The notes under the pieces were generated by a model, which was not told the DNA's origin, did no database searches, and saw only the letters and a program-made list of their open reading frames with translations. Made by a program: the position numbers and the translations under genes. Source: Bacteroidales bacterium (lineage in GTDB: Bacteria; Bacteroidota; Bacteroidia; Bacteroidales; UBA932). From it: a stretch of 64,000 nt of DNA. Of this stretch, positions 8,465 through 30,726 are shown piece by piece; position 1 is the first letter of the stretch; each line of letters starts with the position of its first letter. Location of the stretch: contig JAFRRF010000057.1 in the NCBI GenBank assembly GCA_017428245.1, positions 1 through 64,000 on the forward strand. The letters are read 5' to 3'.

Positions 8465-9787
8465 TCAATGGAAATCGGCGTCGATCTGGATCTTCTGACC
8501 CGGGAGGATGTAGTCGGATTCGATGGTGAGGTCGGTGCCGGTGGTGGGCTTGTCGATGAAGACAAGGAGGGTGTCGCCGGGGAGGAGGCCTTTGAGGGAG
8601 GTTTCGCTGCGGACGCCGGCGACGGCCAGGTAGGCGTCGCGGTAGATGGGTGCAATGCCTGTATTGGTGACGTAGGCGGCCGTCGTCTTGTCGTTGGCAT
8701 ACAGGCCGCTCAGGGCGAAGTGATAGCCGCAGGCCATGCTAGCTTCCTTGAAACGGGTGGATGTACCGTACTGGCCGGACGGGGCGTCATTGGCAATCAT
8801 AAAACTGATATGGTATTTGGCCGAGGCCTGTTCCCAGGTGACGCCGTACATCCCGGCCGGGTTCAGGAAGTTCTTCTGGTCAGCGGAGGTGTAGTAGCTG
8901 ATTTCACCGCCACAGGCGCCTTTCTGCCAGCGAGTCCCTTTGCCGATGGCGTTCCAGCAGTTTTCGTTATAGTCTCCTTCGTGGTCCTTGTGCATGAAGC
9001 TGTCGTCGAACAAGCCGAAAGTGAGGGCCATCAGGGAGGCGTCGCCCACGACGGGCGAGCTTTCGGCCGCATCGATCGAGATGAGCCAGGGAATATCCAA
9101 TGCGCCGGCCAGATAGGTCAGAAACTCTTTCTGGTAGGCATCGGACGGGAAATTGACCCCCGGTTGGAGCGGCGTGCCGAAGATGTGGTATTCGCTCCAG
9201 TGGCCGAAACCGACCTCAACGAAGGCGATGCGCGGATCGTTCCGATAGGCGGCGTTGAAATCGGCATAGAACTGCTTGGTGAACCACTGCAGTTCCGGAT
9301 TCGTCCAGTCGGCATACCAGGTGGGGCCGTCTTCATTCTCGAAATAGGTCTCGTGGTAGTCGGGCAGCGCCTTGATATAGTCGGGCACGGCGGTCGTGCC
9401 GGGATTGCCGTCTACGCTGCGCTCGCCGGGATACTCATAGCGGAAACGCACCACCGCCTGGTGTTTCCGTGAAGCCACGTCGCTGAGCCATTTGTTGAAG
9501 GAACTCCAGTCGTACTGGATCGCATCGCCTACCTTGCCCTTAACGACCTTGCAGGGAAGGCAATAGGCGTATTCCAAAGAGATGGATTTTCCATAATCGG
9601 CATTCCGTTCGCGGGCATTCTCGCTCCAAAGCACCAGGCCGGTACCGGGCTGCACCGCATCGACCCGGGAACTGATGCTGACGGGAACATACGATTCGTC
9701 CAATTCGGCCGGGAGATTCTTCCCCGCCGGCTCGCACGCGGCAACTGCCGCAAAAGCAAGCATGAAGATAAGCAAGCGTCTTTTCAT
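8465..9787 (-). CDS. lipoprotein with TIM-barrel-like DUF4874/DUF4832 domains
   Basis: 440 residues. An N-terminal lipoprotein signal (MKRRLLIFMLAFAAVAAC) puts it on the cell envelope, probably the surface. The body resembles the DUF4874 + DUF4832 pairing, a glycoside-hydrolase-like TIM barrel followed by a beta-sandwich. Features include VEVGFGHWSEYH near residue 190, which looks like a barrel active-site strand, an early Trp/Tyr-rich region (FENEDGPTWYADW), and a beta-rich C-terminus. The substrate is unknown. I would guess a polysaccharide-active enzyme but see no proof of catalysis. Its promoter is unusual: the -7 box ends only 5 bases before the ATG, so the mRNA should have almost no leader. 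It stands alone, between nifJ upstream and the tRNA-His region. Confidence 0.8.
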   Translation of the reverse strand: MKRRLLIFMLAFAAVAACEPAGKNLPAELDESYVPVSISSRVDAVQPGTGLVLWSENARERNADYGKSISLEYAYCLPCKVVKGKVGDAIQYDWSSFNKWLSDVASRKHQAVVRFRYEYPGERSVDGNPGTTAVPDYIKALPDYHETYFENEDGPTWYADWTNPELQWFTKQFYADFNAAYRNDPRIAFVEVGFGHWSEYHIFGTPLQPGVNFPSDAYQKEFLTYLAGALDIPWLISIDAAESSPVVGDASLMALTFGLFDDSFMHKDHEGDYNENCWNAIGKGTRWQKGACGGEISYYTSADQKNFLNPAGMYGVTWEQASAKYHISFMIANDAPSGQYGTSTRFKEASMACGYHFALSGLYANDKTTAAYVTNTGIAPIYRDAYLAVAGVRSETSLKGLLPGDTLLVFIDKPTTGTDLTIESDYILPGQKIQIDADFH

Positions 9788-9868: not shown

Positions 9869-12800
9869 CTACTCAACACCAGCGAGGCGCTTGTAGGTGC
9901 CGAGACGCCACTTGGCGAATTCCTCGGTCTTGGCGAAGAGTTCGGCGGCGTTCTCGGGGAACGACTTCATCAGGGAAGCATAACGGACCTCGCCCTTGAG
10001 GAAGTCCTGGAACTTGCTCCAGTCGGGATCGGCCTTGCTGTCGAGCTTGAACGGGTTCTGGCCCGCGGCTTCCAAAGCCGGGTTGTAGCGGTACAGGTGC
10101 CAGTAGCCGCATTCGACGGCACGCTTCTCTTCCGCCTGGCTGTGTCCCATACCCGCCTTCAGGCCGTGGTTGATACACGGCGCGTAGGCAATGATCAGCG
10201 ACGGGCCGTCGTAAGCCTCGGCTTCCTTGATCGCATTGAGGAACTGGGCCTGCGAGGCACCCATCGCCACCTGGGCCACATAGACATAGCCGTAGCTGAT
10301 GGCCATCATGCCGAGGTCCTTCTTGCGGATCTTCTTGCCGCTCGTAGCGAACTTCGCCACGGCGCCGGCCGGCGTCGATTTCGACGACTGGCCGCCCGTG
10401 TTGGAGTACACCTCGGTGTCGAGTACGAGCACGTTGACATTCTCGCCGGAGGCCAGCACGTGGTCGAGTCCGCCGTAGCCGATGTCATAGGCCCATCCGT
10501 CACCGCCGAATACCCACTGGCTGCGGGCCGGGATGAAGTTCTGGAGCTCGAGGAGTTTCTTGCAGGTGTCGCAGCCGCATTCCTTCATCAGCGGAACGAG
10601 GGCGTCGGCAATCTTGCGCGTGGCGGCGGCATTGTTGCGGTCGGCGAGCCACTGCTCGAAGAGCGTCTTGATCTCGGAGGTGCAGCAGTTGCATTCCAGA
10701 CCTTCGCGCATCAGGCGCGCGACGGTCTCGCGGACGCGGTCGGAACCCAGGTGCATACCCAGGCCGAACTCGGCGTTGTCCTCGAAGAGGGAATTCTGCC
10801 AGGCCGGACCGTGGCCTTCGGCGTTCTTGCAGAACGGCGAGGACGGGAAGGCGGCGCTGTAGATCGACGAGCAGCCCGTAGCGTTGGCGATCATCATCCG
10901 GTCGCCGAAGAGCTGGGTGATGGCCTTGATGTACGGAGTCTCGCCGCAGCCGGCGCAGGCACCGGAGAACTCGAAGAGCGGCTGTGCGAACTGCGAGTTC
11001 TTCACGTTCTGCTCTTTCGGGGCGACGGTGTCCTTGTAACCCACATTAGCGTGGAGATAGTCGAAGTTCGCCTGCTCTGCATTCTGGCTGTCGAAACTCT
11101 TCATAACGAGGGCCTTCTCCTTGGCCGGGCAGACATCGGCGCAGTTGCCGCAGCCCGTGCAGTCGAACGGAGAGACCTGCATCGTGAAGCTGTACTCCTT
11201 GAACTGGGCGATACCCGCTTTGCGTTTGATGGAAGCCGGGGCCTTCTCGCCTTCGGCGGCCGTCATCAGGAACGGACGGATCGCAGCGTGCGGGCAGACA
11301 AAGGCGCACTGGTTGCACTGGATACAGTTGGCCGGGTTCCATTCGGGGACCTCGACGGCCGTACCGCGCTTCTCGTAGGCGGCGGTGCCGGCAGGAATCG
11401 TGCCGTCCACCATTTCGCCGGAGAAGGTGCTCACCGGCAGGTCGTTGCCGTTCTGCGCGGCAACCACGTCGGCCACGTTGCGGATGAATTCGGGCGCCAG
11501 GCGGTTGTAATTCGCGTGGACGAAACGGCCGCAGGCGTTCTTCCAGGATTCCGGAATCTCGACCTCGACATAGTCGCCGCCGCGGTCTACGGCCGCGTAG
11601 TTCATCTTAACCACATTCTCGCCCTTCTTTCCATAGGACTTGTCGATGGCTTTCTTCATATAGGCCACGGCCTCTTCGTACGGGATGATGCCCGTAATCT
11701 TGAAGAATGCGCTCTGGAGGATGGTGTTGGTGCGGCCGCCCAGGCCGATTTCCGCCGCGATCTTGGTGGCGTTGATCAGATAGAGGCGGATATGCTTCTC
11801 AACGATGGTCTTCTTCACGAAATCGGGAATGCGGGCGAAGGTCTCTTCGGTATCCCAGAGGCTGTTGAGCAGCAGCGAGCCGCCCTCCTTGATGCCCTTG
11901 AGCACATCGTACTTGTAGAGATACGAAGGCACGTGGCAGGCCACGAAGTCGGGCGTCGACACGAGATACGGGGCGTGGATCGGCTGGTCGCCGAAGCGCA
12001 GGTGCGAGCAGGTGTAGCCGCCGGACTTCTTGGAGTCGTAATCGAAATAGCCCTGGCAGTACTTCGGCGTGTGGTCGCCGATGATCTTGATGGTGTTCTT
12101 GTTGGCACCCACCGTACCGTCGGAACCCAGGCCGAAGAACTTGCACTCATACGTGCCTTTCTTCACGATGGAGACTTCTTCCTTGAGCGGGAGCGACTTG
12201 AAGGTCACATCGTCGACGATGCCGATGGTAAAGCCGTTCTTGGGTTCGCGGAGCTTGAAGTTGTCGAACACGGCGATGATCTGGGCCGGACTGGTGTCTT
12301 TGGAAGAGAGACCGTAGCGGCCGCCCACGATCATCGGGGCATTCTCGCCCATATCGGCGATCACGCTCTTGACGTCGAGGTAGAGCGGTTCACCCAGCGC
12401 GCCGGGTTCCTTGGTGCGGTCGAGCACGGCGATGCGCTTGACCGTCTTCGGCAGGGCACGGAGGAAATATTTCGCGGAGAACGGGCGGTAAAGACGTACC
12501 GTGACCAGACCGAGCTTTTCGCCGCGGGTCTCGGCCAGGTAGTCGATGGTCTCCTTGATGGTCTCGCAGACGGAGCCCATCGCGATGATGACATTCTCGG
12601 CATCCGGTGCGCCATAGTAGTCGAATGGCAGATAATGGCGGCCGGTCAGCTCGCTGATCTCGCCCATATAACGGGCCACGATGTCGGGAACGGCATCATA
12701 ATACGGGTTCGAGGCCTCGCGGGCCTGGAAGAAGACGTCGGGGTTCTGGTTGGTACCGCGGGTGACAGGCTTGTTGGGATTGAGGGCCTTGGCGCGGAAC

Positions 12801-13411
12801 TGCGCGAGGGCCTTGTCGCTCACCAGCGGACGAAGGTCTTCGGCCTCAAGCATCTCGATCTTCTGGATTTCGTGGGAGGTGCGGAAACCGTCGAAGAAAT
12901 GGACGAACGGAACGCTCGACTTGAGGGTGGCCAGATGGGCCACGGCGCCCAGGTCCATCGCTTCCTGCACGCTGGCGGAGGCCAGCATCGCAAAACCGGT
13001 CTGACGTACGCTCATCACGTCCTGGTGGTCGCCGAAGATGGAGAGCGCCTGCGCGGCGAGGGTACGGGCCGAAACGTGGAACACGGTCGGCAGCAGTTCG
13101 CCGGCGATCTTGTACATATTGGGAATCATCAGGAGGAGGCCCTGGGAAGCGGTGAAGGTCGTGGTCAGGCTGCCGGCCTGAAGCGAACCGTGCACGGCAC
13201 CGGCGGCGCCGCCTTCACTCTGCATCTCGGTAACCTTCACGACTTCGCCGAACATATTCTTCTTGCCGAAAGCGGCCCACTCGTCCACGAGTTCCGCCAT
13301 CGTCGATGAAGGGGTGATAGGATAGATGGCCGCGTGCTCACTGAACAGATACGCCACGTGAGCCGCGGCAAAATTGCCATCACAAGTGATGAATTTCTTT
13401 TCTTTTGCCAT
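9869..13411 (-). CDS. nifJ: pyruvate:ferredoxin (flavodoxin) oxidoreductase
   Basis: A cytoplasmic one-chain PFOR of 1180 residues, normal for the family. It oxidises pyruvate to acetyl-CoA and CO2 and reduces ferredoxin or flavodoxin, a core step of anaerobic metabolism. The start at MAKEKKFITCDGN is the conserved family start; the reading frame extends upstream only by chance. Visible parts are the alpha domain (AIYPITPSSTMAE), the gamma domain, two 4Fe-4S motifs (CIQCNQCAFVC near 700 and CTGCGNCADVC near 750), an extra cluster Cys pair in ACAGCGETPY, and the TPP-binding block GDGWAYDIGYGGLD near 970 with NTGGQSSKSTP. A -7 box TATATTTG lies at 13446-13453. It is preceded by fabD 50 bases away and may be partly co-transcribed with it. 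A strong terminator follows. Confidence 0.97.
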   Translation of the reverse strand: MAKEKKFITCDGNFAAAHVAYLFSEHAAIYPITPSSTMAELVDEWAAFGKKNMFGEVVKVTEMQSEGGAAGAVHGSLQAGSLTTTFTASQGLLLMIPNMYKIAGELLPTVFHVSARTLAAQALSIFGDHQDVMSVRQTGFAMLASASVQEAMDLGAVAHLATLKSSVPFVHFFDGFRTSHEIQKIEMLEAEDLRPLVSDKALAQFRAKALNPNKPVTRGTNQNPDVFFQAREASNPYYDAVPDIVARYMGEISELTGRHYLPFDYYGAPDAENVIIAMGSVCETIKETIDYLAETRGEKLGLVTVRLYRPFSAKYFLRALPKTVKRIAVLDRTKEPGALGEPLYLDVKSVIADMGENAPMIVGGRYGLSSKDTSPAQIIAVFDNFKLREPKNGFTIGIVDDVTFKSLPLKEEVSIVKKGTYECKFFGLGSDGTVGANKNTIKIIGDHTPKYCQGYFDYDSKKSGGYTCSHLRFGDQPIHAPYLVSTPDFVACHVPSYLYKYDVLKGIKEGGSLLLNSLWDTEETFARIPDFVKKTIVEKHIRLYLINATKIAAEIGLGGRTNTILQSAFFKITGIIPYEEAVAYMKKAIDKSYGKKGENVVKMNYAAVDRGGDYVEVEIPESWKNACGRFVHANYNRLAPEFIRNVADVVAAQNGNDLPVSTFSGEMVDGTIPAGTAAYEKRGTAVEVPEWNPANCIQCNQCAFVCPHAAIRPFLMTAAEGEKAPASIKRKAGIAQFKEYSFTMQVSPFDCTGCGNCADVCPAKEKALVMKSFDSQNAEQANFDYLHANVGYKDTVAPKEQNVKNSQFAQPLFEFSGACAGCGETPYIKAITQLFGDRMMIANATGCSSIYSAAFPSSPFCKNAEGHGPAWQNSLFEDNAEFGLGMHLGSDRVRETVARLMREGLECNCCTSEIKTLFEQWLADRNNAAATRKIADALVPLMKECGCDTCKKLLELQNFIPARSQWVFGGDGWAYDIGYGGLDHVLASGENVNVLVLDTEVYSNTGGQSSKSTPAGAVAKFATSGKKIRKKDLGMMAISYGYVYVAQVAMGASQAQFLNAIKEAEAYDGPSLIIAYAPCINHGLKAGMGHSQAEEKRAVECGYWHLYRYNPALEAAGQNPFKLDSKADPDWSKFQDFLKGEVRYASLMKSFPENAAELFAKTEEFAKWRLGTYKRLAGVE

Positions 13412-13461
13412 ACGACTATAAGGATTTAAATAATGATCTAACTTACAAATATACAAAGTAT

Positions 13462-14340
13462 TTAAGCAATCCCCGCAATTTCCTCGACTTCGGGTGCGAT
13501 TTTTTTGACCAGGCCCTGCAGGACGGTCCCGGCACCGACCTCCGTGAAGGAGGAAGCGCCGTCGGCGACCATATTCTTGACAGTCTGGGTCCAGCGGACA
13601 GGCGATGTGAGCTGCATCAGCAGGTTGCGACGGATCTCGTCGGGATCGGTGTGCGGCAGGGCATCGACATTCTGGTAAATCGGGCACACGGGCGCGTGGA
13701 ATTCGGCCGCGGAGATAGCTTCGGCCAACTCCTGACGGGCCGGTTCCATCAGCGGAGAATGGAAGGCGCCGCCCACCGGCAGCAGCAGGGCGCGCTTGAC
13801 GCCGCGCTCCTTGAGCGCGGTGCAGGCCGCCTGCACGGCAGCCACCTCGCCGGAGATTACGAGTTGTCCGTCATTGTTGTAGTTCGCAGGAACCACCGTT
13901 CCCGGCGTTGCGGCACAGACTTCTTCCACCAGCTCCGCCGGTGCTCCGAGAATCGCAGCCATCGCGCCCGGCGTAGCCTCGCAGCAGCGCTGCATGGCCT
14001 GCGCACGGGCAGCCACGAGTTTCAGTCCGTCTTCGAAAGAAAGGGCGCCGGCGGCCACCAGGGCGGAGAACTCACCCAGCGAATGGCCGGCCACCATATC
14101 CGGCCGGATGGCGTAATAGCGGGCAGCTGCCACACTGTGGAGGAAAAGCGCCGGCTGCGTCACGCGCGTGGCCTTCAGGTCTTCGGCCGTGCCTTCGAAC
14201 ATAATCTCACGCAAACCGAAGCCCAGCAGGCTGTCGGCCGCATCGAACAGATCGCGGACCTCGGGATCGCGGACATACAACTCGTGCCCCATTCCTGTAA
14301 ACTGGGACCCCTGTCCCGGAAACACATATGCTTTTTTCAT
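13462..14340 (-). CDS. fabD: malonyl-CoA:ACP transacylase
   Basis: 292 residues, the usual size. It loads malonyl groups onto acyl carrier protein for fatty acid synthesis. The start MKKAYVFPGQGSQ is the typical family N-terminus. GHSLGE (about residue 88) carries the nucleophilic Ser, and the conserved Arg (VAARAQAM) and His (GGAFHSPLM) are present. A good promoter lies 28 bases upstream, so the upstream in-frame ATG at 14388 (MILLLSLRR) falls inside the promoter and was rejected. nifJ follows 50 bases downstream on the same strand. Confidence 0.96.
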   Translation of the reverse strand: MKKAYVFPGQGSQFTGMGHELYVRDPEVRDLFDAADSLLGFGLREIMFEGTAEDLKATRVTQPALFLHSVAAARYYAIRPDMVAGHSLGEFSALVAAGALSFEDGLKLVAARAQAMQRCCEATPGAMAAILGAPAELVEEVCAATPGTVVPANYNNDGQLVISGEVAAVQAACTALKERGVKRALLLPVGGAFHSPLMEPARQELAEAISAAEFHAPVCPIYQNVDALPHTDPDEIRRNLLMQLTSPVRWTQTVKNMVADGASSFTEVGAGTVLQGLVKKIAPEVEEIAGIA

Positions 14341-20541: not shown

Positions 20542-20564
20542 ACGATTATTTGAAAGAAAAACAA

Positions 20565-20572
20565 TATATTTG
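20565..20572 (+). promoter_or_regulatory. -7 box of tRNA-Arg
   Basis: TATATTTG, 13 bases before the tRNA, the same distance as at tRNA-His. There is no TTTG at 18-21 bases upstream. Confidence 0.55.
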
Positions 20573-20585
20573 CAGTCCCAAACCG

Positions 20586-20657
20586 GCCTCCGTAGTTTAA
20601 TGGATAGAATTTCAGATTCCGGTTCTGACGGTTGCGGTTCGATTCCGCACGGGGGTA
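20586..20657 (+). tRNA. tRNA-Arg (CCG)
   Basis: Acceptor GCCTCCG pairs with CGGGGGT using two G-U pairs. A short D arm (GTTTAATGGATAGAAT) follows. The anticodon arm TCAGA-TTCCGGT-TCTGA gives anticodon CCG, and the T arm is GCGG-TTCGATT-CCGC. The discriminator is A and CCA is not encoded. The gene is followed by a structured tail and a terminator, then by an AT-rich islet, a common setting for integration next to tRNA genes. Confidence 0.93.
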
Positions 20658-20668
20658 CTTGAGTTACC

Positions 20669-20770
20669 GGGGCGCTGCCCCAAACCCCGCGCCTCCCGGC
20701 CTTAGTACTTTGCTAATGCCGGGAGTTGTGCATTCTTGAGTTGGGTTTAGCAAAGTACCGGCCTCCGGCG
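20669..20770 (+). other. structured 3' tail downstream of tRNA-Arg
   Basis: About 100 bases with overlapping inverted repeats: GGGGC-GCT-GCCCC (20669-20681); CTCCCGGC (20693-20700) with GCCGGGAG (20718-20725); GTACTTTGCTAA (20705-20716) with its perfect complement TTAGCAAAGTAC (20747-20758). The second and third pairings interlock, because one arm of the 12-bp repeat lies in the loop of the 8-bp one. They could form a pseudoknot or mutually exclusive folds. It lies between the tRNA and the terminator, so it should be transcribed with the tRNA. Confidence 0.5.
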
Positions 20771-20791
20771 GCCCGCTGATGCGGGCTTTTT
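20771..20791 (+). terminator. terminator of the tRNA-Arg transcript
   Basis: GCCCGC, loop TGAT, GCGGGC, TTTTT: a strong intrinsic terminator. Confidence 0.85.
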
Positions 20792-21179
20792 CGTACTTTC
20801 TAGTTCGGAACAATCAAATCAGCGCCTAAACTAAGTGGGCAACCCGAAAATCTTTGTCCACTCCATTCTCGGCAAAAACGCTCTGTGACTTGTTTGCATG
20901 CGGACACCGTTATTTTTCGTCACTAAAGGATGTACAACGCAGACCATTAAACAGGCTCGTCAATGTCGCGCAGAAGGGCGTCCCGCATAGGTTATTAATG
21001 CTTGCCCTCCCTCGGCTTTTCCAGTGATCAATTAAATATCAAAGATTTATATTATCTTTGTAAAGAAACGATAAGATATTCCCCCATTAATAAGTCCGGC
21101 AATTATAAAAATGGGGGGGGCAAGTATCTGTATATCAACAACTTGCGCACGCCCCGTGCAACAAAAACCATCTTATCCA
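20792..21179. other. gene-poor stretch at the edge of the AT-rich islet
   Basis: I find no convincing gene here. The left half (to about 21010) has no long frame and could be decayed sequence. The right half is AT-rich. It holds a -7 box TATCTTTG (21053-21060) without a clear -33, and a run of eight G (21113-21120) 60 bases before the next gene. The DNA upstream of the G run is in frame with the lipoprotein gene from an ATG at 21111. Confidence 0.5.
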
Positions 21180-21704
21180 ATGAAAACTACTCGTTATTTT
21201 TTCTTCGCCCTTGTGAGTGTTTGCTCACTACTATTTATTACTTCTTGTCAAGAAGTTAAAGATGATGATATGAATGATAAAAGCGCAATTGTTGGGACAG
21301 AAACATTTGTATCGTCTTTATCTTCTTATCGCGCATACATAACAAAATCTGATGAATTATCTGAGGGCGAAGCACAAGCCATGATTGAACCAATTATGGC
21401 ATTATCCATAGCCTATCTTGATGCGAATGATTATGACATTTCTGAAGACTTTGATGATCCAGATGATCCGCGAATTGCATGGGTTGCGTTGGCTTTAGCA
21501 GAGTATGATAGAATCTTCCTGCCAACGACAAAAACATCGGTAGGAGGATGTGTTCTCCAAGCTATAGGCGTTTATGAGGTTTTGGACGCTATGGGGAAAA
21601 AGCTTATTAAAGCACTTGCAAAGCAAGCGCTAAAAAAGGCTGTTCCCTATGTGGGGGCTGCGCTTACAGTGGTAGATTTTGTTCTTTGTATGGTAGAAGA
21701 CTAA
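21180..21704 (+). CDS. small secreted lipoprotein with Cys-bracketed hydrophobic C-terminus (bacteriocin-like?)
   Basis: 174 residues. The start MKTTRYFFFALVSVCSLLFITSC is a clear lipoprotein signal with lipobox ITSC. Next comes an acidic middle section (DDDMND, EDFDDPDDPR), then a C-terminal module of about 60 residues that opens with GGC, runs through a Lys/Ala-rich amphipathic stretch (KKLIKALAKQALKKAVPYVG), continues as AALTVVDFVL and closes with CMVED. Two Cys bracketing an amphipathic, Gly/Ala-rich helix-forming segment is the layout of some pore-forming bacteriocins, for example halocin C8-like peptides released from a larger precursor. I do not recognise the family firmly. Codon and base use are far more AT-rich than in the neighbours, which suggests transfer. 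The next gene encodes a two-helix membrane protein, a possible immunity partner. Confidence 0.75.
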   Translation: MKTTRYFFFALVSVCSLLFITSCQEVKDDDMNDKSAIVGTETFVSSLSSYRAYITKSDELSEGEAQAMIEPIMALSIAYLDANDYDISEDFDDPDDPRIAWVALALAEYDRIFLPTTKTSVGGCVLQAIGVYEVLDAMGKKLIKALAKQALKKAVPYVGAALTVVDFVLCMVED

Positions 21705-21717
21705 TTTTGTTACCCAT

Positions 21718-21915
21718 ATGCTTTTGTTAATCAATTCCATCCTCTTTTTTATTGGTTTTATCTGGATGATCTTCGATCGTGCAAAATTTGAAAAAAAGCA
21801 CAAAGGTGATTCCGGAGAATTCGCTTCTCTCTATAGGGAGCACAATACCCTTCAAATTGTTTTGCTAGCAGTTTTAACCTTTTATTGTCTTTCCAAGTAT
21901 TTTGGTATAGATTAG
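21718..21915 (+). CDS. small two-helix membrane protein
   Basis: 65 residues, 13 bases after the lipoprotein gene. A first transmembrane helix (INSILFFIGFIWMIF), a charged linker (DRAKFEKKHKGDSGEF) and a second helix (IVLLAVLTFYCLSKYF) are visible. There is no signal cleavage site and no known motif. It has the same AT-rich base use as the upstream gene and probably shares its transcript. Size, topology and position fit a bacteriocin immunity protein or a holin-like accessory protein. That is inference only. Confidence 0.6.
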   Translation: MLLLINSILFFIGFIWMIFDRAKFEKKHKGDSGEFASLYREHNTLQIVLLAVLTFYCLSKYFGID

Positions 21916-21970
21916 CTGTATTGGATCAAGCCGGAGATTCGTTAAACAGTCAAAATAGAGGTCGACTAAA

Positions 21971-22022
21971 AATGACATGAACCCCGAAAGTTAGACATAA
22001 TACTTTTGGGGTTCATGTCATT
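21971..22022 (-). terminator. 20-bp stem hairpin, terminator of the metallo-hydrolase transcript
   Basis: The arms at 21971-21990 and 22003-22022 pair over 20 bp with one mismatch, which becomes a G-U pair in RNA on the plus strand. The loop is 12 bases. In the minus direction the stem is followed by TTTTTAG, so it should end the SusC/SusD/hydrolase transcript. It also marks the right edge of the AT-rich islet. The arm contains GAACCCCGAAAGTTAGACA, which resembles terminal sequences of some IS3-family elements, but no transposase is present. Confidence 0.7.
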
Positions 22023-22039
22023 CTGACGGTTTATTCAGA

Positions 22040-22687
22040 TCAGTTGAGGAGTTCGATGGCGGGATCGAGGTCTTTTTTTAGTTTGGGGACGTCGATTTCG
22101 AAGTAGTGGTAAGCGTAGAGACACTTGGGCTTGATGAGGTTGGCCGCCTTGAGGAATTCCTCGTCGGTCATTGTGTACGGGAGGTTCTTCGGCAGGAAAG
22201 CCAGGTCGATCTTCGGGAGTTCCTGCATTTCGGGAATGGGTTCCGTGTCGCCGGCCAGATACACCTTGAAGCCGTCGAAATCGACCACATAGCCGTTCCC
22301 CACCCCGCGAGGATGGAAGAGTTCGCCCGAAGGGTTGCGGCGATTCACGTTATACGACTCCACCGCCGTTATCTGGATGCCTTCCCAAGTGCAGAACTGG
22401 TCGTTGGCCAGCACGATGTAACGATCGTCCACCGGGCCTACGTTCGCACTCACGATAAAGGTCGTATCCGGCGTCTCTATCTCGGAAAACGCCTTTTCGT
22501 CGTAATGATCGTAATGGTTGTGGGTGATCAGGATCAGGTCGGCTTTGGGATCGCCGGTGAAGTCGTGGACCTCGCTGTACGGGTCGACATAGATGATCTT
22601 GTCACCTATGTCGAGCCGTACGGAGGCGTGGCCCAGCACCTTGACCCGAAGGTCACCCATCGGTGTAGGGAACGTTTTCATCGGCAT
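22040..22687 (-). CDS. MBL-fold metallo-hydrolase (UlaG-like)
   Basis: About 215 residues, cytoplasmic, without a signal peptide. It carries the metallo-beta-lactamase signature ITHNHYDHYD (about residue 57), a later metal-binding Asp in YLAGDTE, and a His in CLYAYHYFE. This set is typical of the small UlaG/YtnP-like hydrolases, whose substrates vary. The ATG at 22687 overlaps the SusD stop codon (TGATG), so translation is probably coupled. A second ATG (MKTFPTPMGD) lies 6 bases on. It is the last gene of the left SusC/SusD operon and may process the imported compound. A strong hairpin follows. Confidence 0.87.
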   Translation of the reverse strand: MPMKTFPTPMGDLRVKVLGHASVRLDIGDKIIYVDPYSEVHDFTGDPKADLILITHNHYDHYDEKAFSEIETPDTTFIVSANVGPVDDRYIVLANDQFCTWEGIQITAVESYNVNRRNPSGELFHPRGVGNGYVVDFDGFKVYLAGDTEPIPEMQELPKIDLAFLPKNLPYTMTDEEFLKAANLIKPKCLYAYHYFEIDVPKLKKDLDPAIELLN

Positions 22688-24156
22688 CAATACCCCGGAT
22701 TCTGCTGGATGCCCGGATTGGCGTTGATCTCGTCCTGGCAGATCGGGAGGATCGCCCGGAAGAACGTCCGGTCAATGTGGCTCTCACGGTAGGTCGTGGT
22801 GGTACCGAAGCCCCACGCATCGTCCTCGAAGTACACGGTGCGGTTCTGGCGCATCTCCTCGAAGAAGAGCTTGCCCTCGCCGAACAGTTCGCGACGATAC
22901 TCGTCGAAGATGGCGTCGAGGCTCACGTTCGCGGCCGTCCAGGCAGGCTGGCCCGGATTACGTCTGGCGATCTCGTTCAGCAACTCGGCGGCTTTCGCCT
23001 TGTTGTTGTTGTGGAAGTACGCCTCCGCAGCAAGCAGATAGATTTCCGACAGACGGGTCACCTTGATGTTGACCGCCGTGGAAGTCGCCTTGCCGTCGCC
23101 GGCCAGGCTCGGGTTGCCGCTGTACTTGTAGCAGCACACCGGCCAGTTGCTGCGCTCTTCCTCGCCGTACATGTGGTCGTAGTCCATCACGCCCCAGCGG
23201 ACGTCGGTGTCAGCCATGATCTGGTGCCAGTATTCGCTGGCGCTGAAGCAGCCGTAGGCCGAGGAGTTGCCGTGGTTCTTGCGACGGAAGAGGATGCCGT
23301 AGGCGCTTCCGCCCGGGTCACCCTCACTCGGGTAGATGGCCAGTTCGAAGACAGATTCGGAACCGTTCTGCTTCGTCCAGGAAGCCACCCACTCGGACGG
23401 CTCATAGAGCTTGTAGACGCCGCTGTCGATGATGTTGTCGAAGCACGTGGCCGCAGCCGAGAAGTTGTCCATATACATGTACACCTTACCCAGGATGGCC
23501 TGGTTCGCATAGTAGTTGATGTAACCGACGACTTTCTTCTTGGCCAGCAGCGGAGCTGCTGTGTTGAGGTCGGCCACGATCTGCGTATAGACCTCTTCCA
23601 CCGTGTTGCGCTGCAGCTGCGCACCGGCATCGACCGGCTCGGTGACCAGGGCCACGCCCGCAGCGGACTTGTTCATGTTGTACGGCTGGCCGTAGAGGCG
23701 CACCAGGTCGAAGTGGATCAGGGCGCGGGCGGTATAAGCCTGGCCAAGGATGTTGTCGAGACCCGTGGAGGTCGTTCCGTCAGCCTTCAGCAGCTCGATG
23801 TTCTTGATGATGTTGTTGGCCTGGAGCAGGCAGTTGTAACCCTGCGACCAAAGGCCGGAATAGGTGTTCGACGTCTGCGTGTGGGCGAAATAGTACATAT
23901 TGGAGCCCGTATAGCCGGCCGTGTAAATGGTGAAGTCACCGCCCCTGGCGTCGCCGAAGAGCAGGAAGTTCTGGCCATAGTAGCTCGTCGAGGTCATCTT
24001 GCGCATCAGGCCGTTGATCATCACCTGGGCATCCGCTTCACTCGTGATGCAGGTGGAGGAGTCAGCCTGGTTGCTCGGGGAGACATCCAGGAAACCTTCA
24101 CAGGAAACGAAGGTCAGCGCGCAGAAAAACGAAAGGATGATTGCTATCTTTTTCAT
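22687..24156 (-). CDS. SusD/RagB family surface lipoprotein
   Basis: 489 residues. The lipoprotein signal has lipobox TFVSC followed by EGFLDVSPSNQ, the typical SusD start. TPR-like helices (AYTARALIHFDLVRLYGQPY) and the C-terminal SusD signature (RRELFGEGKLFFEEMRQ, ending LPICQDEINANPGIQQNPGY) are present. It forms the lid of the SusC channel and captures glycans or peptides at the surface. It lies 18 bases after the SusC gene and overlaps the hydrolase gene downstream. Confidence 0.95.
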   Translation of the reverse strand: MKKIAIILSFFCALTFVSCEGFLDVSPSNQADSSTCITSEADAQVMINGLMRKMTSTSYYGQNFLLFGDARGGDFTIYTAGYTGSNMYYFAHTQTSNTYSGLWSQGYNCLLQANNIIKNIELLKADGTTSTGLDNILGQAYTARALIHFDLVRLYGQPYNMNKSAAGVALVTEPVDAGAQLQRNTVEEVYTQIVADLNTAAPLLAKKKVVGYINYYANQAILGKVYMYMDNFSAAATCFDNIIDSGVYKLYEPSEWVASWTKQNGSESVFELAIYPSEGDPGGSAYGILFRRKNHGNSSAYGCFSASEYWHQIMADTDVRWGVMDYDHMYGEEERSNWPVCCYKYSGNPSLAGDGKATSTAVNIKVTRLSEIYLLAAEAYFHNNNKAKAAELLNEIARRNPGQPAWTAANVSLDAIFDEYRRELFGEGKLFFEEMRQNRTVYFEDDAWGFGTTTTYRESHIDRTFFRAILPICQDEINANPGIQQNPGY

Positions 24157-24174
24157 AATTGTGTCCTCCGTAAT

Positions 24175-27100
24175 TTAGAAAGTGAATTCAATGCCAAAGG
24201 TGTAGGTCTTTCCGATCGGGGTTTCCCAGCCTCTGGTACCGTATTGGTTGACTTCAGGGTCCGCCTCCTTGTACTTGGCGAACGTCAGGAGGTTGCCGCC
24301 GGTGAAGTACACGCGGAGGTTGTTGACGGAGATCTTCTTCGTCAGGACGGTCGGGAACGTGTAGGAGAGCGTGACGTTCTTCAGACGGATGAACGTGGCG
24401 TCGTGCAGGTGGCGGGAGCTTCGCTGCATGGCATCCTCAAGGTCGGTACCGCGGAGTTTCGGCTCCGTACCGGCCGTGTTGTACTCGGTCCACATGTTCT
24501 GGAAATACTCCTGGGCACGGATACGGTTCCAGTAGTAACCATCGTCGGCTACATCTCGCCAGGCACCGTTGGCAAGCTGGCCGCCGATCTTGTAGTTGAA
24601 GTTCAGCGCAAGGCTCAGGCCCTTCCAGGCCACGTCGGTGTTGATACCGCCGAAGACGAACGGATTGGCATCGCCGATGATCACTTCGTCCGCATCGGTC
24701 AGGTCGTACACGACATTGCGGCCGTCGACCGTGATGTCCTTGTTCTCGTTGTTGGAGTACCACAGGTTGGCACCGGTCGTCGGCTCGACACCGGCCCACT
24801 CGCGACCCCAGAAGGCCAGCGTGGACTCACCCTCGCGATAGATATACTTCGCACGGTCGTCGTCGCCCGTCGGGTCCCACCAGATGATGTCCTGGCCGCC
24901 GTAGAGTTCCGTGACCTTGGATTTCAGGAAGGAACCGTTGATGCCGGCGCTCCAGCGGAAGTTGGAGTTGCGGATGATGTCGCCGTTGAGTTCGAACTCG
25001 ATACCGTGGTTGTTGATGGACCCCACGTTCTGGAGCGTGGAGGAGAAACCGGTGATGTAGGAGATGGGCACGTCCTGCAGCAGGTTCTTGGAATCGCGGT
25101 TGAACCACTCGACGCTGCCGGAGATGCGGTTGTCGAAGAAGCCGAATTCCAAGGCGACGTTGGTCGTGTAGCTCGTCTCCCAGGAGAGGTTGGCGTCGGC
25201 CGCGTTGATCAGGCCGCCGCCCGGGCTTTCCATATATTTATAACCGTAGCCGGCGAGGGAACGCCAGCCATAGTTGCTGCTCGGAAGCGTACCGTTGACA
25301 CCGTAGGAAGCACGGAGACGCAGGTTGCTGATCACGTCCGATCCCTTGAGGAACGGCTCCTCGCTGATGCGCCAGGAACCGGCCACCGACCAGAAGTTAC
25401 CCCAGCGGGAAGCGGAACCGAGGCGGGAGCTGCCGTCACGGCGGAAACTGCCGGAGAGATAGTACCGGTTGTCATAGTTGTATTCCGCACGGGAGAGGAT
25501 GGACATCATCGTGTTGCCCCAGTAGTAGGCATTCGCGTCGAGCGTACCGGCCGTGGCGACCGTATGGAGGGCGCTGACCGGGAGGTCCTTACCGGTGGAA
25601 CGCATGAACTCGGTGTTGTTCTTTTCAGCCTCGAAGCCGACCAGGGCCGCGAAGTTGTGCTTGCCGAAGTCCTTGTTGAAATTGAGGGTCGAGGAGGAGA
25701 CCGTCTTCTGGTAGTCGGTCATCATCTCCGTCACGGAACCGTTGGTCGAAGTACCGTTGAAGTGCTCTGCGCTGTACCAGATGTGGTCGCGGACGCGGGT
25801 GTCGTCGTAGGAGAAGACGGTACGGAAGTTCAGCCAGTCGGTGAACTTGATGGTGGCCGTCTCGCTCACGGCGACCTTGAAGGTCCGGGAGTTGTTCTCC
25901 CACAGGTCGTTGTAGTACAACTGGTTCTGGGCGAGGGAGGCGTAGCGGGCCGTCCACGGATCGCCGGTCTTGTAGTCATCGGGCCAGTAGAGCGGCCACA
26001 ACAGGTTGCGGGTCTGCATGAAGTAGTTGGCACCCGTGCTGCGGGTATCGTTGTAGCCCTGCTTGTTGGTATTGGCCAGGCTCACGTTTGTGGCCAGTTC
26101 AAACCACTTGCCCACTTTCTGGTTGAGGTTCACGCGGCCGCTGATACGGTCGAAGCCGTTCACATAGACACGGCCCTGCTCCTTCGTGTAGGCGAATGAA
26201 GTATAATAGGTACTGTTCTGGGTACCGCCGCTGACGTTCAGGTCATAGGTCTGATAGACGGCCGTGCGGAAGTAAGCGTCGTCCCAGTCGAAGAAGATGA
26301 CATTGCCGGCTGCGTCGGTACGTTTCAGCTTGCCGTCGTCCTTGGCCGTGATCTTGATGTGGCCGTAGCGCTCGGTGTCGTCCTTGGTCAGGTCGTAACC
26401 GAACTGGTTCCACTTGCTGTTCAGCTGGCCGAGGGCGTAGCTGCTGGCATACTCCTGCGTACGGCCCTGCGACATACGGTAGTCCCAGAAAATCTGGTAC
26501 AACATGTCGACGTTGTCCTGCGCGGAAGCCGTCTCGAAGTTGTCGTAGGCCCAGCTGGGCGTCAGACCGACCGATGCACGGAAGGTCACCGTAGGTTTGC
26601 CCTCGCGGCCGCGCTTGGTGTTGATCAGGATGACGCCGTTCGCGGCACGGGAACCGTACAGGGCGGAAGCGGCGGCGTCCTTCAGGACGGTGATGGACTC
26701 GATATCGTTCGAGTTCAGGGTCGCCATCACGTTGTTGGAGGTGTAGATGTAGTCACCCATCTGGCCGGAGTCGCCGGACACCGTCGGGACACCGTCGATG
26801 ACGTAGAGCGGCTCGTTGGATGCGTTCATGGAACCGATACCGCGGATGCGGATGGCAGAAGCCGAACCGACCTGGCCGGACGACTGCGTGATCTGCATGC
26901 CGGCGACCTTGCCGTTGAGCGCCTGTTCGAAGGAAACGGCAGGGACGTCCTTGATGGCGTCCTGTTTCACCACGGAAGCCGCGCCGGTGTAGGTTCCTTT
27001 CTTGGCGGTACCATAGGCCACGACGATGGTTTCTTCCAGGGCCTCCGCATTGGGAGACATTGCCGCGTCGATGACCGAGCGGCCTGCCACCTGGACCTCA

Positions 27101-27340
27101 AGGTCGTTGAAGCCGATGGAGGAGAAAACCAGAATAGCATTGGACGGCACGTTGTTCAGAACATACGTACCGTTCTCATTCGACGCAACCAACACCCGTC
27201 ATCGTACCCTTCACCACGACACTGGCGAAGGGAATGGGCGATCCGTCTTGTGAAGAAGTCACCTTGCCGGTAACCCGGATTTGCGCGAAAGCCGTGCTGC
27301 AGAGGAGCACCATCAGCGCAATGGTCAATAGTTTCTTCAT
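24175..27340 (-). CDS. SusC/RagA TonB-dependent transporter, frameshifted near its N-terminus
   Basis: The main frame (24175-27195) encodes about 1006 residues: part of the CarboxypepD_reg-like domain, the plug (YVIDGVPTVSG, SALYGSRAANGVILI) and the 22-strand barrel ending TYTFGIEFTF. It has no signal peptide in that frame. A different frame upstream, from the ATG at 27340, encodes MKKLLTIALMVLLCSTAFAQ and continues through SVVVKGTMTGV, closely matching the paralogue at 27568. It then runs into a stop. One base too many near 27187-27195 (GGTGTTGGTTGCG) explains the break. I give the whole gene as one feature. It is either a sequencing error, a true pseudogene or a switchable site. A -7 box TAATTTTG lies at 27414-27421. 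Confidence 0.85.
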
Positions 27341-27567
27341 AAGCGTTTTTTGGTTAAATTATGGTTGATTAAGTGTGTGTGCGGCGTTTTTTCAACAAAA
27401 CCAGTGGTAAATACAAAATTAAGCATAAAAATTTGGATTTTTAAAAAAACCATAACACAAAAGAATGGAAAAACAAACTGTTTTTTTTCTTAAATTTGTA
27501 GAGTACTTGGAGGTCACAAATCAACCATTCATACTTAATCATTTCACACATCACAAACCATCTGCTT
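27341..27567. promoter_or_regulatory. divergent regulatory region between the two SusC genes
   Basis: 227 very AT-rich bases with a -7 box for each side: TAATTTTG on the minus strand (27414-27421) and TAAATTTG on the plus strand (27491-27498). Neither has a clean -33 TTTG, which would fit promoters that need an activator. No regulator gene (SusR, ECF sigma/anti-sigma, hybrid two-component) is present in the window beside them. Confidence 0.5.
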
Positions 27568-30500
27568 ATGAAGAAACTATTCACAGCGGCGATCCTGGTG
27601 CTCCTTTGCTGCACCGCTTTCGCACAGAACCGGGTGACCGGACGCGTCACCTCTTCAGAAGATGGAAACGGAATCCCGTTTGCCAGTGTCGTGGTGAAGG
27701 GGACAATGAACGGCGTAGCCACGGACGACGACGGTTACTTTACGCTGACCAACGTCGCACGCGGAGCCGTTCTGGAGTTTTCATCGGTCGGTTTCCTCAC
27801 CCAGGAAGTCCAGTATGACGGCCAGTCTCCGGTCAATGTCATCCTCGCTTTCGACAGGGAATCCCTCGACGAGGCTATGGTCGTGGCTTATGGCACGGTC
27901 AAAAAAGGATCCTATTCAGGATCCGCGGCCGTCGTCAAGCAGGAGTCCATCAAAGATGCTCCGGTTGTAAGCTTCGAACAGGTCCTGGCTGGTAAGGCCC
28001 CCGGCGTACAGGTAGCCTCCTACTCCGGCCAGCCTGGTGCGGATACGGATATCTCCATCCGTGGTTTCGGTTCCTTCAATGCCGGCAACCAGCCGCTCTA
28101 CGTCATCGACGGTGTGCCCGCCACCAGCGGCGACCGGGCCTGGGGTAACCTGTCCATCGGTTCGATGAACTTCCTCAACCCGGGCGACATCGAGTCCATC
28201 ACCATCCTGAAGGATGCCGCGGCCGCTTCGCTCTACGGTTCCCGTGCATCCAACGGTGTGATCCTGATCACCACCAAGAAGGGTAAAGCCGGCAAGATTA
28301 CCACCAACTTCAAGGCAAACGCCGGTTTCTCCTACTTCGCTTACGACAACTACCCGCTCTGTAACGATGCGGAAACCGAGATGATGCACCGTATGGCATG
28401 GACCAACTATGCCAACGACAATCCTTCTTCCTGGAGCAGTTATGGCAGCGTCGAAGCCTATGTGGACGCCAAGGTTGCCAGCAACTATCCTGCAAAGGAT
28501 GAAAGCAAATACATCTACAAGGACTGGGAGGACGTTCTCTTCCGTACGGGTATCGCCCAGAACTACGAACTGAGCCTCACGGGCGGCGGCGACCGGGGAA
28601 AGGTCTATGCTTCGGTCGGCTGGACCGACCAGCAGGGCGTGGTGGTCATCGACTACCTGAAGCGTTTCTCCACCACCATCAACGCCGAGGCGAAAGTCAC
28701 CGACTGGCTCTCCGTGGGCGCTACCAGCCAGTATTCCTGGCAGTACCAGAACGGCCAGCAGGACGGCTGGGCCTCGAAAGACAACCCGTTCTTCATCTGG
28801 AAGGTGGTCCTCAACGAGCGCTGGCCTTATGCCTATAAGGATACGGGCGACCTCTACCTCGATACCTGGAGCCCCAGCTTCTCGACCGTCAACCCGGTGC
28901 CGACCTATGACAAACAGATCAACGACGCCTGGCAGAACCGTGTCCTCCTCAAGGGTTGGGCTGAAATCAAATTCACCGATTTCCTGCGTCTCAAATCGAC
29001 GATCAGCGAAGACTGGCTCTACATCCACGACCGTTTCGGCTGGCTCTACGGACACCCGAACTTCTATGCCTACAGTGACACCGGCGGTTATATGGCCGAC
29101 CACCACTTCAACATCCGTCGCCTGGTCAGCTCCACGACCCTGAATTTCGACAAGACGTTCGGTGCCCATCACATCGCGGCCATGGCCGGCTGGGAGGCTG
29201 AAGAGGAAAACTATGAAGAATCCGTCGTCAACAAGATCGACTTCTCCTATATGGGTGCGACCCAGTCGGTCCTGGCGACGAATTTCGACGACGGCTACAC
29301 CTACACCAGCCGGTATTCCCTGCTTTCCGCCCTGGGCAGCCTGAGCTATGACTACGATGCCCGTTATTACCTGACCGGTACGTTCCGCCGCGACGGTTCC
29401 TCGAAACTCGCACCGGAAACCCGCTGGGGTAACTTCTGGTCCGTATCCGGATCGTGGCGCTTCTCCAACGAGCCGTTCCTCAAGAACTTGTCCTGGCTGA
29501 CCGACGCCAAGATCCGTGCTTCCTACGGTACCTCCGGTACGCTTCCGTCGAACTATTACGGCTATATGTCCGTGTACAACTATACGAATTACGGCAGCAA
29601 CGGCGCCAGCTATCCGGCCAACCTGGCCAACTCCGACCTTTCCTGGGAAAAGAACAAAAACTGGAACATCGGTCTGGACGCCATCCTCTTCGATTTCGCC
29701 AACATCACGGTGGAATACTTCAACAAGCTGACCACCGACCTGCTCCTCGACGCGACGGTTCCTTCGACCACCGGTTTCACCTCCACGCTGATGAACATCG
29801 GCTCGATGGTCAACCGGGGCTGGGAAATCTCCGTGGGCTTCGATATCCTTCGCAACAAGAACGGTTGGAATCTCTCGGTAGGCGCCAACTGGTCGCACGT
29901 CCACAACGAGGTGCTCGCCCTTTCCGAGGAAGGTGAATCCATCGTGGATACGCCGTACGTATGGCAGCAGGGCTATTCCTTCTACCAGTACCGTACCCGT
30001 TATTATCTGGGAGTATGCCAGGAAGACAATTACATGGGCAACAGCCGCCTGAAAGCCGGTAACCCGATGTATGCCGAGGGTTCCTACTATGAGCAGGGCG
30101 AAATCGCCGACCAGACCGTGGTACTCAAGAACGGTACCGTGATCCAGGAAGGCAGCCCGGTTCCCGAGGACACCTGGAACTTCTATCCGACCAACCGCAA
30201 CAACTCCAGCAATATGATCCTGGAAGGAATGACCGCCATTCCGAAGGGCTTCGGCGGTTTCAATATGAACGTTGGCTGGAAGGGGCTCAGTCTCGACATG
30301 GCCTGGTCGTACAAGTACGGCCACTACATCTGGGATGAAGGCGTGGAGCAGATGGAGAGCGACGGTTACTACGACTTCCACCGCAACATCGCCAAGGACC
30401 AGCTGAATGCCTGGACGCCGTCCAATACGAACACCGACGTCCCGCGCCGTATCCGCGACAACGGACAGGGCGGCTACTATTATTCCAGCCGATACCTCAA

Positions 30501-30726
30501 GAGAGGCGACTTCCTCCGTCTGAAGAATGTCACCCTTTCCTATAACCTGCCCCGGAACTTCAGCAACAAGCTGAGCATGAGCAACGCCCGTCTTTATGTG
30601 GCTGCAGCCAACCTGCTCACTTTCTCCGGTCTGAACATCGACCCGGAAATCAAGTCGAATGGTTACTACTACTATACGATGCCGGCCATGCGGACCGTAA
30701 CCATTGGTCTCGACCTGACATTCTAA
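27568..30726 (+). CDS. SusC/RagA family TonB-dependent transporter
   Basis: 1052 residues, full length. Signal peptide MKKLFTAAILVLLCCTAFAQ, CarboxypepD_reg-like domain (residues 22-100), a region with AMVVAYGTVKKG typical of SusC, then the plug (YVIDGVPATSG, ASLYGSRASNGVILITTKKG) and the barrel ending TVTIGLDLTF. It imports bound ligands across the outer membrane with TonB energy. Its N-terminus is nearly identical in layout to the frameshifted paralogue that diverges from it, while the barrel regions differ, so the two probably take different ligands. The SusD gene follows after 21 bases. Confidence 0.96.
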   Translation: MKKLFTAAILVLLCCTAFAQNRVTGRVTSSEDGNGIPFASVVVKGTMNGVATDDDGYFTLTNVARGAVLEFSSVGFLTQEVQYDGQSPVNVILAFDRESLDEAMVVAYGTVKKGSYSGSAAVVKQESIKDAPVVSFEQVLAGKAPGVQVASYSGQPGADTDISIRGFGSFNAGNQPLYVIDGVPATSGDRAWGNLSIGSMNFLNPGDIESITILKDAAAASLYGSRASNGVILITTKKGKAGKITTNFKANAGFSYFAYDNYPLCNDAETEMMHRMAWTNYANDNPSSWSSYGSVEAYVDAKVASNYPAKDESKYIYKDWEDVLFRTGIAQNYELSLTGGGDRGKVYASVGWTDQQGVVVIDYLKRFSTTINAEAKVTDWLSVGATSQYSWQYQNGQQDGWASKDNPFFIWKVVLNERWPYAYKDTGDLYLDTWSPSFSTVNPVPTYDKQINDAWQNRVLLKGWAEIKFTDFLRLKSTISEDWLYIHDRFGWLYGHPNFYAYSDTGGYMADHHFNIRRLVSSTTLNFDKTFGAHHIAAMAGWEAEEENYEESVVNKIDFSYMGATQSVLATNFDDGYTYTSRYSLLSALGSLSYDYDARYYLTGTFRRDGSSKLAPETRWGNFWSVSGSWRFSNEPFLKNLSWLTDAKIRASYGTSGTLPSNYYGYMSVYNYTNYGSNGASYPANLANSDLSWEKNKNWNIGLDAILFDFANITVEYFNKLTTDLLLDATVPSTTGFTSTLMNIGSMVNRGWEISVGFDILRNKNGWNLSVGANWSHVHNEVLALSEEGESIVDTPYVWQQGYSFYQYRTRYYLGVCQEDNYMGNSRLKAGNPMYAEGSYYEQGEIADQTVVLKNGTVIQEGSPVPEDTWNFYPTNRNNSSNMILEGMTAIPKGFGGFNMNVGWKGLSLDMAWSYKYGHYIWDEGVEQMESDGYYDFHRNIAKDQLNAWTPSNTNTDVPRRIRDNGQGGYYYSSRYLKRGDFLRLKNVTLSYNLPRNFSNKLSMSNARLYVAAANLLTFSGLNIDPEIKSNGYYYYTMPAMRTVTIGLDLTF

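Follow-up and report, generated by a model that had tools for sequence, protein, structure and literature searches.

A predicted lipid-anchored bacteriocin-like toxin and its putative two-helix immunity protein in a small mobile cassette of Bacteroidota

Results

An AT-rich islet with two small genes beside a tRNA-Arg gene

The window, that is the whole stretch of 64,000 nucleotides of Bacteroidales DNA that was analysed, holds an islet of 1,381 bp (positions 20659-22039) which was delimited by an empty-site sequence, by the alignment of its flanks and by a shift in GC content. Its left neighbour is a tRNA-Arg(CCG) gene found with ARAGORN on the forward strand (20586-20658). The islet encodes, also on the forward strand, a 174-residue lipoprotein that we propose as a putative toxin (21180-21704) and, 13 bases downstream, a putative immunity protein of 65 residues with two hydrophobic segments (21718-21915), followed by a hairpin at 21971-22022. 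The GC content of the islet (computed on 20659-22034) was 0.415, compared with a window mean of 0.585 and a standard deviation of 0.032 in sliding windows of islet length, and each of the 12 sliding windows with the lowest GC overlapped the islet, so that at this scale no other part of the window is as AT-rich. An earlier note on this DNA, made from its letters, had reported an AT-rich islet beside the tRNA gene, and the composition agrees with it; the onset does not, since by eye the AT-rich part begins about 140 bp past the tRNA and not right after it.

The lipoprotein comprises a signal peptide with a lipobox (residues 1-23), an acidic N-terminal part (residues 24-117) and a C-terminal module (residues 118-174, positions 21531-21701 of the forward strand). 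The lipobox reads FITSC and, apart from its Cys23, the protein contains Cys15 within the signal peptide and the pair Cys124 and Cys170, between which a cationic amphipathic stretch is followed by 16 residues without Lys or Arg. In the N-terminal part 5 Lys/Arg stand against 21 Asp/Glu, and positions +2 to +8 after the lipobox Cys read QEVKDDD. The GC3 of the gene was 0.286 versus a mean of 0.692 in 28 mechanically chosen ORFs, the lipoprotein gene included, and the two hydrophobic segments of the partner have mean hydropathies of 2.49 and 1.74. The lipoprotein with its signal peptide, lipobox and Cys placement, the shift in base use and the two-helix protein 13 bases downstream were thus found as the earlier note had described them. 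No second copy of the lipoprotein was detected in the genome of the window (2.37 Mb, 62 contigs). About 120 bp upstream of the ATG there is a TAnnTTTG sequence (21053-21060, forward strand), which we read as fitting the consensus of the Bacteroidota -7 box; it is a weak candidate, as 115 of 1000 shuffles contain one, and no TTG or TTTG box was present in the 30 bases upstream of it.

The islet reads as an insertion because a genome of the same genus (G067, locus L080) has the same surroundings, with left flank, tRNA and the gene on the right (presumably for a metallo-hydrolase), and a spacer of 140 bp between tRNA and that gene versus 1,381 bp in the window. This was the only locus with the tRNA at this site among 17 same-genus loci scanned, with a reach of at most 1.5 kb and less in some cases where the contig ends. 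At locus L079 the carboxylase-like gene, which lies to the left of the tRNA in the window, directly adjoins the hydrolase gene. The earlier note had also listed the tRNA flank among its observations. No direct repeats of at least 12 bp were found across positions 20560-22120, including any that would tie the tRNA to the right border of the islet, and the tRNA was therefore rejected as an integration site. Neither an integrase nor a duplicated tRNA 3' end, as in a tRNA-integrated genomic island, was found in the islet, whose ORFs leave no room for an integrase. The tRNA-Arg gene is probably a mere neighbour of the islet and not clearly a part of it.

The hairpin that the same note had placed to the right of the islet genes is present, with arms of 21 nucleotides (21971-21991 and 22002-22022) that are 95% complementary and resemble the end of an insertion sequence. 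In the window's own genome (G000), contigs C4 and C10 have matches to the arms at their starts, where an ORF beginning MRKKHSYEDRLKYMEMLEAGSS, which we take to encode a transposase, adjoins the hairpin-like end; a third match, in contig C59, is internal. Given these IS-like ends at the contig starts, the right border of the islet probably carries the trace of an insertion sequence, and the hairpin looks like what is left of one, or like a short non-autonomous version; it may serve as a terminator as well. Beyond the islet, at 22687-30726, lie what we assume from the look of the ORFs to be two SusC/SusD-like gene pairs.

A rare lipoprotein family with a conserved C-terminal module

Searches with the window protein, or with alignments built from it, led to 18 loci of an unnamed lipoprotein family in Bacteroidota, with duplicates counted once (judged by lipoprotein sequence, L009 equals L075 and L005 equals L076). 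Eleven of them carry complete lipoprotein genes (the window, L003, L034, L039, L066, L067, L070, L071, L075, L076 and L077), two have an uncertain start (L033 and L068), and five are decayed or partial (L004, L069, L072, L074 and L112). The first search gave matches below E 0.1 in 33 of 393 genomes, the window's own included (opened loci L003, L004, L005, L009 and L010), the second below E 0.01 in 29 of 395 (L033, L034 and L039), the third below E 0.002 in 13 of 395 (13 loci with 4 repeats, of which L066-L072 and L074 were opened and L073 was left out), and the fourth below E 0.05 in 15 of 374 (L112, L113, which repeats L074, and L114); the named loci L075-L077 were the 3 confirmed out of 117 stretches. 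Most low-scoring matches span, judged by their ranges, no more than the signal peptide or a section of some longer frame, and a few distant members may be missed. Locus L010 was opened and rejected as a family member, as was L114, where the match is just the lipobox of an unrelated 77-residue lipoprotein; L002 was a false match, with its frame sitting in another gene, presumably for a glycosyltransferase.

Within the taxonomic family of the window, its own genome was the only true match among 299 in the single-protein search, where L002 was a weak further match that was rejected. The occurrence is rare and scattered across Bacteroidota and, together with the empty site, we count it in favour of a mobile cassette. 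A tRNA gene is close by in 2 of the 18 family loci scanned (the window and L112), and at L075 one lies more than 2 kb away. At L112:2142-2216, a cut-down toxin module with an uninterrupted partner is found about 430 bp from a tRNA-His gene.

In the alignment of 12 members C23, C124, G130, F167 and C170 are invariant, and in a module alignment of 13 rows both Cys, the Gly and the Phe were again without exception. Across 14 modules 46-58 residues separate the two Cys, and the stretch free of Lys and Arg before the second one is 16 residues long in 12 modules and 15 and 17 in the other two. Apart from the lipobox Cys and the pair, the mature chain has no further Cys in 9 of 12 members (L076 judged by eye), with extra Cys in L066, L039 and L070. 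By script count, 11 of 12 members have a net acidic part ahead of the module, the exception being L067. The acidic export signal after the lipobox is absent or weak in several members, and L075 has no acidic residue there at all; surface display, which is likely for the window protein, may therefore not be general. No conserved protease site was seen in the alignments before the first module Cys.

The amphipathicity of the best 18 residues of each module was compared with 500 shuffles. At most 25 shuffles reached the observed value in 4 of the 14 modules, 26-83 in 7 and at least 190 in 3; the count was 13 for the window, 321 for L039, 192 for L066 and 190 for L070. Amphipathicity beyond that of shuffles is thus confined to few members, which counts against the toxin reading. 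A comparison of L076 with L077 gave dN/dS values of 0.06 (module), 0.26 (N-terminal part) and 0.34 (partner). Purifying selection thus acts on both genes in this lineage, with the tightest constraint on the module.

A small hydrophobic partner directly downstream

In each of the 13 loci, counting the window, whose lipoprotein gene is complete or almost complete, this gene is directly followed by a small hydrophobic ORF; the two overlap by 4 bases at one extreme and lie 49 bases apart at the other. At least two hydrophobic segments were found in 12 of these partners (three in L039 and four in that of L068, which has 154 residues), and L067 has one above the threshold plus a shorter one by eye. 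Chance linkage was gauged with the ends of all ORFs of at least 120 residues, in six frames and with non-genes included, in the window and L075-L077. Only 3 of these 125 mechanical ORF ends were followed by a qualifying small ORF (ATG start, 50-100 residues, two hydrophobic segments, start within -15 to +30 bases), all 3 being family loci, and the fourth family locus, L076, fell one base outside the cut with a gap of 31. The partners resemble each other in size, place and hydrophobicity. The alignments do not show their common descent, as the window partner aligned poorly with four others (15-25% identity) and BLASTP at E 1e-4 linked only the partners of L076 and L077 and, in addition, an upstream ORF of L067 with the partner of L068.

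The decayed loci were inspected for what remains of the pair. At L069, L074 and L112 the lipoprotein gene is cut down to its C-terminal part and the partner ORF is uninterrupted; at L004 the lipoprotein gene contains stops and the partner looks broken too; and at L072 a split lipoprotein gene is followed only by an ORF of 38 residues with one helix. The partner is hence kept in 3 of 5 decayed loci, which fits what is expected of orphan immunity genes and resembles the orphan rfab1 genes of the Fab1 system (PMC8406203).

Genomic context and a bacteriocin cluster around the closest relative

We compared 212 ORFs with one another by BLASTP (E 1e-4), taken from 16 kb of the window and from 13 regions (7-15.5 kb each) around family members, and only the lipoprotein recurs in more than two of these 14 regions. 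Matches between two regions belong to what we assume are common types (XRE regulators, ABC ATPases and an S9-type peptidase), the last of which lies near both the window pair and the pair of the closest relative, G390 (locus L122), whose lipoprotein shares 35-39% identity with that of the window depending on the method.

The G390 pair (L122 6909-7678) is enclosed in a class II bacteriocin cluster (L122:6471-13977, contig G390:C61) that comprises two double-glycine peptides (8638-8832 and 9940-10137) 1-2.3 kb downstream of the pair, an ABC transporter with a C39 peptidase (11809-13977) about 4 kb downstream, and a thioredoxin-like protein. The second peptide matched Bacteriocin_IIc (E 7.3e-5, 23.1 bits, below the cut-off of 27.1) and MccV (E 7.3e-4, 20.5 bits, below the cut-off of 27), and the first had no family match. 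A near-identical block of about 430 bp precedes both the pair and the first double-glycine peptide and carries a helix-turn-helix-like ORF (HTH_3, E 0.003, below the cut-off). Homology of the module to the double-glycine peptide of this cluster was rejected, as the two gave no alignment.

An association with a bacteriocin cluster was found for this one relative only. A C39 peptidase match was present in 13 of the 17 family genomes and lay near the pair only in G390. Most of these genomes are drafts, so a gene placed on a separate contig may in fact be a neighbour; the only C39 match of the window's genome is on another contig. Since four genomes had no C39 match, two of them with a complete cassette (G809 and G1119) and two with a decayed one (G529 and G1368), a dedicated exporter seems not to be needed.

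Comparison with known families

Neither the window lipoprotein nor its partner had a credible match in Pfam or NCBIfam, and the 12 aligned members had none in Pfam, NCBIfam or PHROGs, where the best chance-level matches were far below the cut-offs. Sequence searches of the PDB returned weak matches only (best E 0.053), and family searches revealed no enzyme-like or nuclease C-terminus. No match to the window protein was obtained by tblastn in plasmid and phage records, none in plasmid records with three further queries from two relatives, and no relative was found in viral contigs. A word-based search of mostly open papers, which is weak evidence of absence, brought up no paper that we recognised as describing this family, and no biological activity is known to us for any of its members.

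Discussion

We consider it probable that the islet is a mobile two-gene antibacterial cassette which encodes a lipid-anchored bacteriocin-like toxin and a membrane immunity protein, with killing and immunity as its predicted outcomes. Direct support comes from the two genes, the family with its conserved residues, the linkage of the partner, the insertion, the selection in one pair of relatives and the cluster around the nearest relative. The earlier note had proposed a bacteriocin and immunity pair, and what it expected of homologues was found: the Cys pair is kept in 12 of 12 aligned members, each of the 13 loci with a complete or almost complete lipoprotein gene has a partner, and the members gave no credible match to a non-toxin family in Pfam, NCBIfam or PHROGs. 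The bacteriocin context of the closest relative and the loci that retain just the partner intact fit it as well. The proposal stands only in part, as no conserved processing site was seen in the alignments, the tRNA gives no sign of an integration site, the hairpin is like the ends of insertion sequences, and several members have a weak acidic export signal or none. Further points against it are that no described bacteriocin or toxin family gave a credible match, that the module does not align with the double-glycine peptide of G390 and that few of the partners are linked by BLASTP.

According to this proposal, the first gene would encode a prolipoprotein that is exported by Sec, lipidated on Cys23 and transferred to the outer membrane. 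Lipobox proteins of Bacteroidota are exported and lipidated in this way and may be flipped to the surface if acidic residues follow the Cys (PMC5080379); the QEVKDDD of the window protein fits surface display in part. The acidic N-terminal part (residues 24-117) would hold the cationic module soluble and harmless, and the module between Cys124 and Cys170 would form a helical hairpin closed by a disulfide, in which a cationic amphipathic helix precedes the hydrophobic 16 residues that are free of Lys and Arg and end at the second Cys. By contact with a related neighbour cell, or by release to it, the module may insert into the inner membrane and depolarise it, either cut free or while still anchored. 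The second gene would encode a two-helix inner-membrane protein that binds or blocks the module and so protects the producer. The role that a double-glycine leader and an ABC exporter have in class II bacteriocins would here fall to the lipoprotein signal.

Concerning a release step, the genome has a single C11 (clostripain-type) peptidase (G000:C28:119149-120165, locus L125), with a lipobox by eye. Peptidases of this type activate BcpT and Fab1 (PMC9308784, PMC8406203). Fragipain-type processing was nevertheless rejected as a feature of the family, which lacks a conserved basic site before the first Cys.

Several known systems share traits with the cassette. The BSAP pore-forming lipoproteins (NCBIfam NF053772) are like it in that a lipoprotein signal is found on Bacteroidales antibacterial toxins; L003 and L077 matched this model in the signal peptide and N-terminus only (best 15.5 bits versus a cut-off of 380), and no MACPF or CDC-like pore former was listed for the window protein. 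Class II bacteriocins (IIc/MccV type) combine a small cationic or hydrophobic peptide with a small membrane immunity protein. Unlike them, the window protein begins with a lipoprotein signal ending in FITSC and has no double-glycine leader, none of 12 members matched PF10439 or PF17508 at E 0.1, and a C39 ABC exporter lies beside the pair in just 1 of 17 genomes, mostly drafts (G390).

BcpT/BcpI of Phocaeicola is likewise a Bacteroidales antibacterial toxin predicted to be a surface lipoprotein, with a small immunity gene downstream, an active part at the C-terminus and an N-terminal part thought to be an intramolecular chaperone (PMC9308784). It differs in that BcpT, a plasmid-borne protein of 499 residues, binds lipid A-core and needs fragipain-like proteases for its activation, and in that BcpI is a predicted lipoprotein of 57 residues instead of a two-helix protein (PMC9308784). 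Fab1/Rfab1 of Bacteroides fragilis shares the adjacent protoxin and immunity genes, a horizontal scatter and orphan immunity genes in some strains, whereas Fab1 is a predicted 50-kDa protein that fragipain cleaves, and a 28-kDa fragment of it is what the supernatant contains (PMC8406203). Both were compared with the cassette by description only, and they differ from it in size (499 residues and about 50 kDa versus 174 residues). Cdz of Caulobacter is a surface-bound, hydrophobic and glycine-rich bacteriocin with contact killing and a small inner-membrane immunity protein, but it consists of two peptides that leave by type I secretion, and CdzI is predicted to have three helices (PMC5380434).

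The lipidated SitA toxins of myxobacteria, which come with the immunity gene sitI and are often on mobile DNA (PMC8546572), raise the question of whether the window protein is a polymorphic lipoprotein toxin of that kind, delivered by contact or membrane exchange and with an N-terminal part that is a delivery domain and not a prodomain. The lipobox, the conserved C-terminal module, the adjacent partner and the scattered distribution suit this explanation, as does the very existence of lipidated toxins with immunity genes in myxobacteria (PMC8546572). We nonetheless find it unlikely, because SitA escort domains pair with varying nuclease C-termini whereas the N-terminal part and the module stay together in 12 members, with no swap seen, and no enzyme-like C-terminus was found; lipobox and partner gene are there, and the family searches found no nuclease domain. 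The same source describes SitA nuclease C-termini that act in the cytoplasm, six families of escort domains and delivery by outer membrane exchange (PMC8546572).

The tight linkage of the two genes and the purifying selection on both would also fit a protein complex, such as a non-toxic envelope pair in which the lipoprotein would bind the small membrane protein through its C-terminal hairpin, for instance in stress response or signalling. This seems to us quite improbable given the rare and scattered occurrence (a single true match, the own genome, among 299), the partner retained in 3 of 5 decayed copies, the lack of constant neighbours and the one relative within a bacteriocin cluster. As both genes are small, one with a product that may act on membranes and the other encoding a membrane protein, they might, moreover, form an addiction (toxin-antitoxin-like) or lysis module that acts in the producer cell only, but the first product is taken out of the cytoplasm by its Sec/lipoprotein signal and the tblastn searches of phage and plasmid records with the window protein, and of plasmids with three queries from two relatives, gave no match, which leaves this explanation highly improbable.

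If the islet is indeed an antibacterial cassette, one of about 1 kb that needs no exporter and moves among Bacteroidota would be an easily missed weapon, because no family model searched covers its lipoprotein family. Lipidated antibacterial toxins such as BcpT and SitA are known, as are small bacteriocin and immunity pairs; what would be new is the combination of both in an exporter-free cassette of 1 kb. To our knowledge, the characterised antibacterial toxins of Bacteroidales are mostly large (MACPF, BcpT, Fab1) or need an exporter or a type VI system. More tentatively, and with somewhat more doubt than confidence, we suggest a phylum-wide class of lipid-anchored bacteriocins in the form of stand-alone cassettes, where a lipoprotein signal and an acidic prodomain replace leader and exporter. 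Such a class would mean that about 1 kb of acquired DNA lets any Bacteroidota cell display or shed a membrane-active hairpin closed by a disulfide, with a two-helix immunity protein to protect it. The cassette would then also be a simple, testable source of narrow antibacterial peptides, and its partner a direct test case for two-helix immunity proteins that block membrane-active peptides.

The partner genes also vary in their arrangement. At L067 a second small hydrophobic ORF lies upstream of the lipoprotein gene and resembles part of the L068 partner (BLASTP E 9e-7), the other half of which resembles, by eye, the downstream ORF of L067; the L068 partner therefore looks like a fusion of both. 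At L130:5948-7120 and L134:998-1462, two small membrane ORFs that flank one toxin gene appear fused, in another genome, as one partner with four segments.
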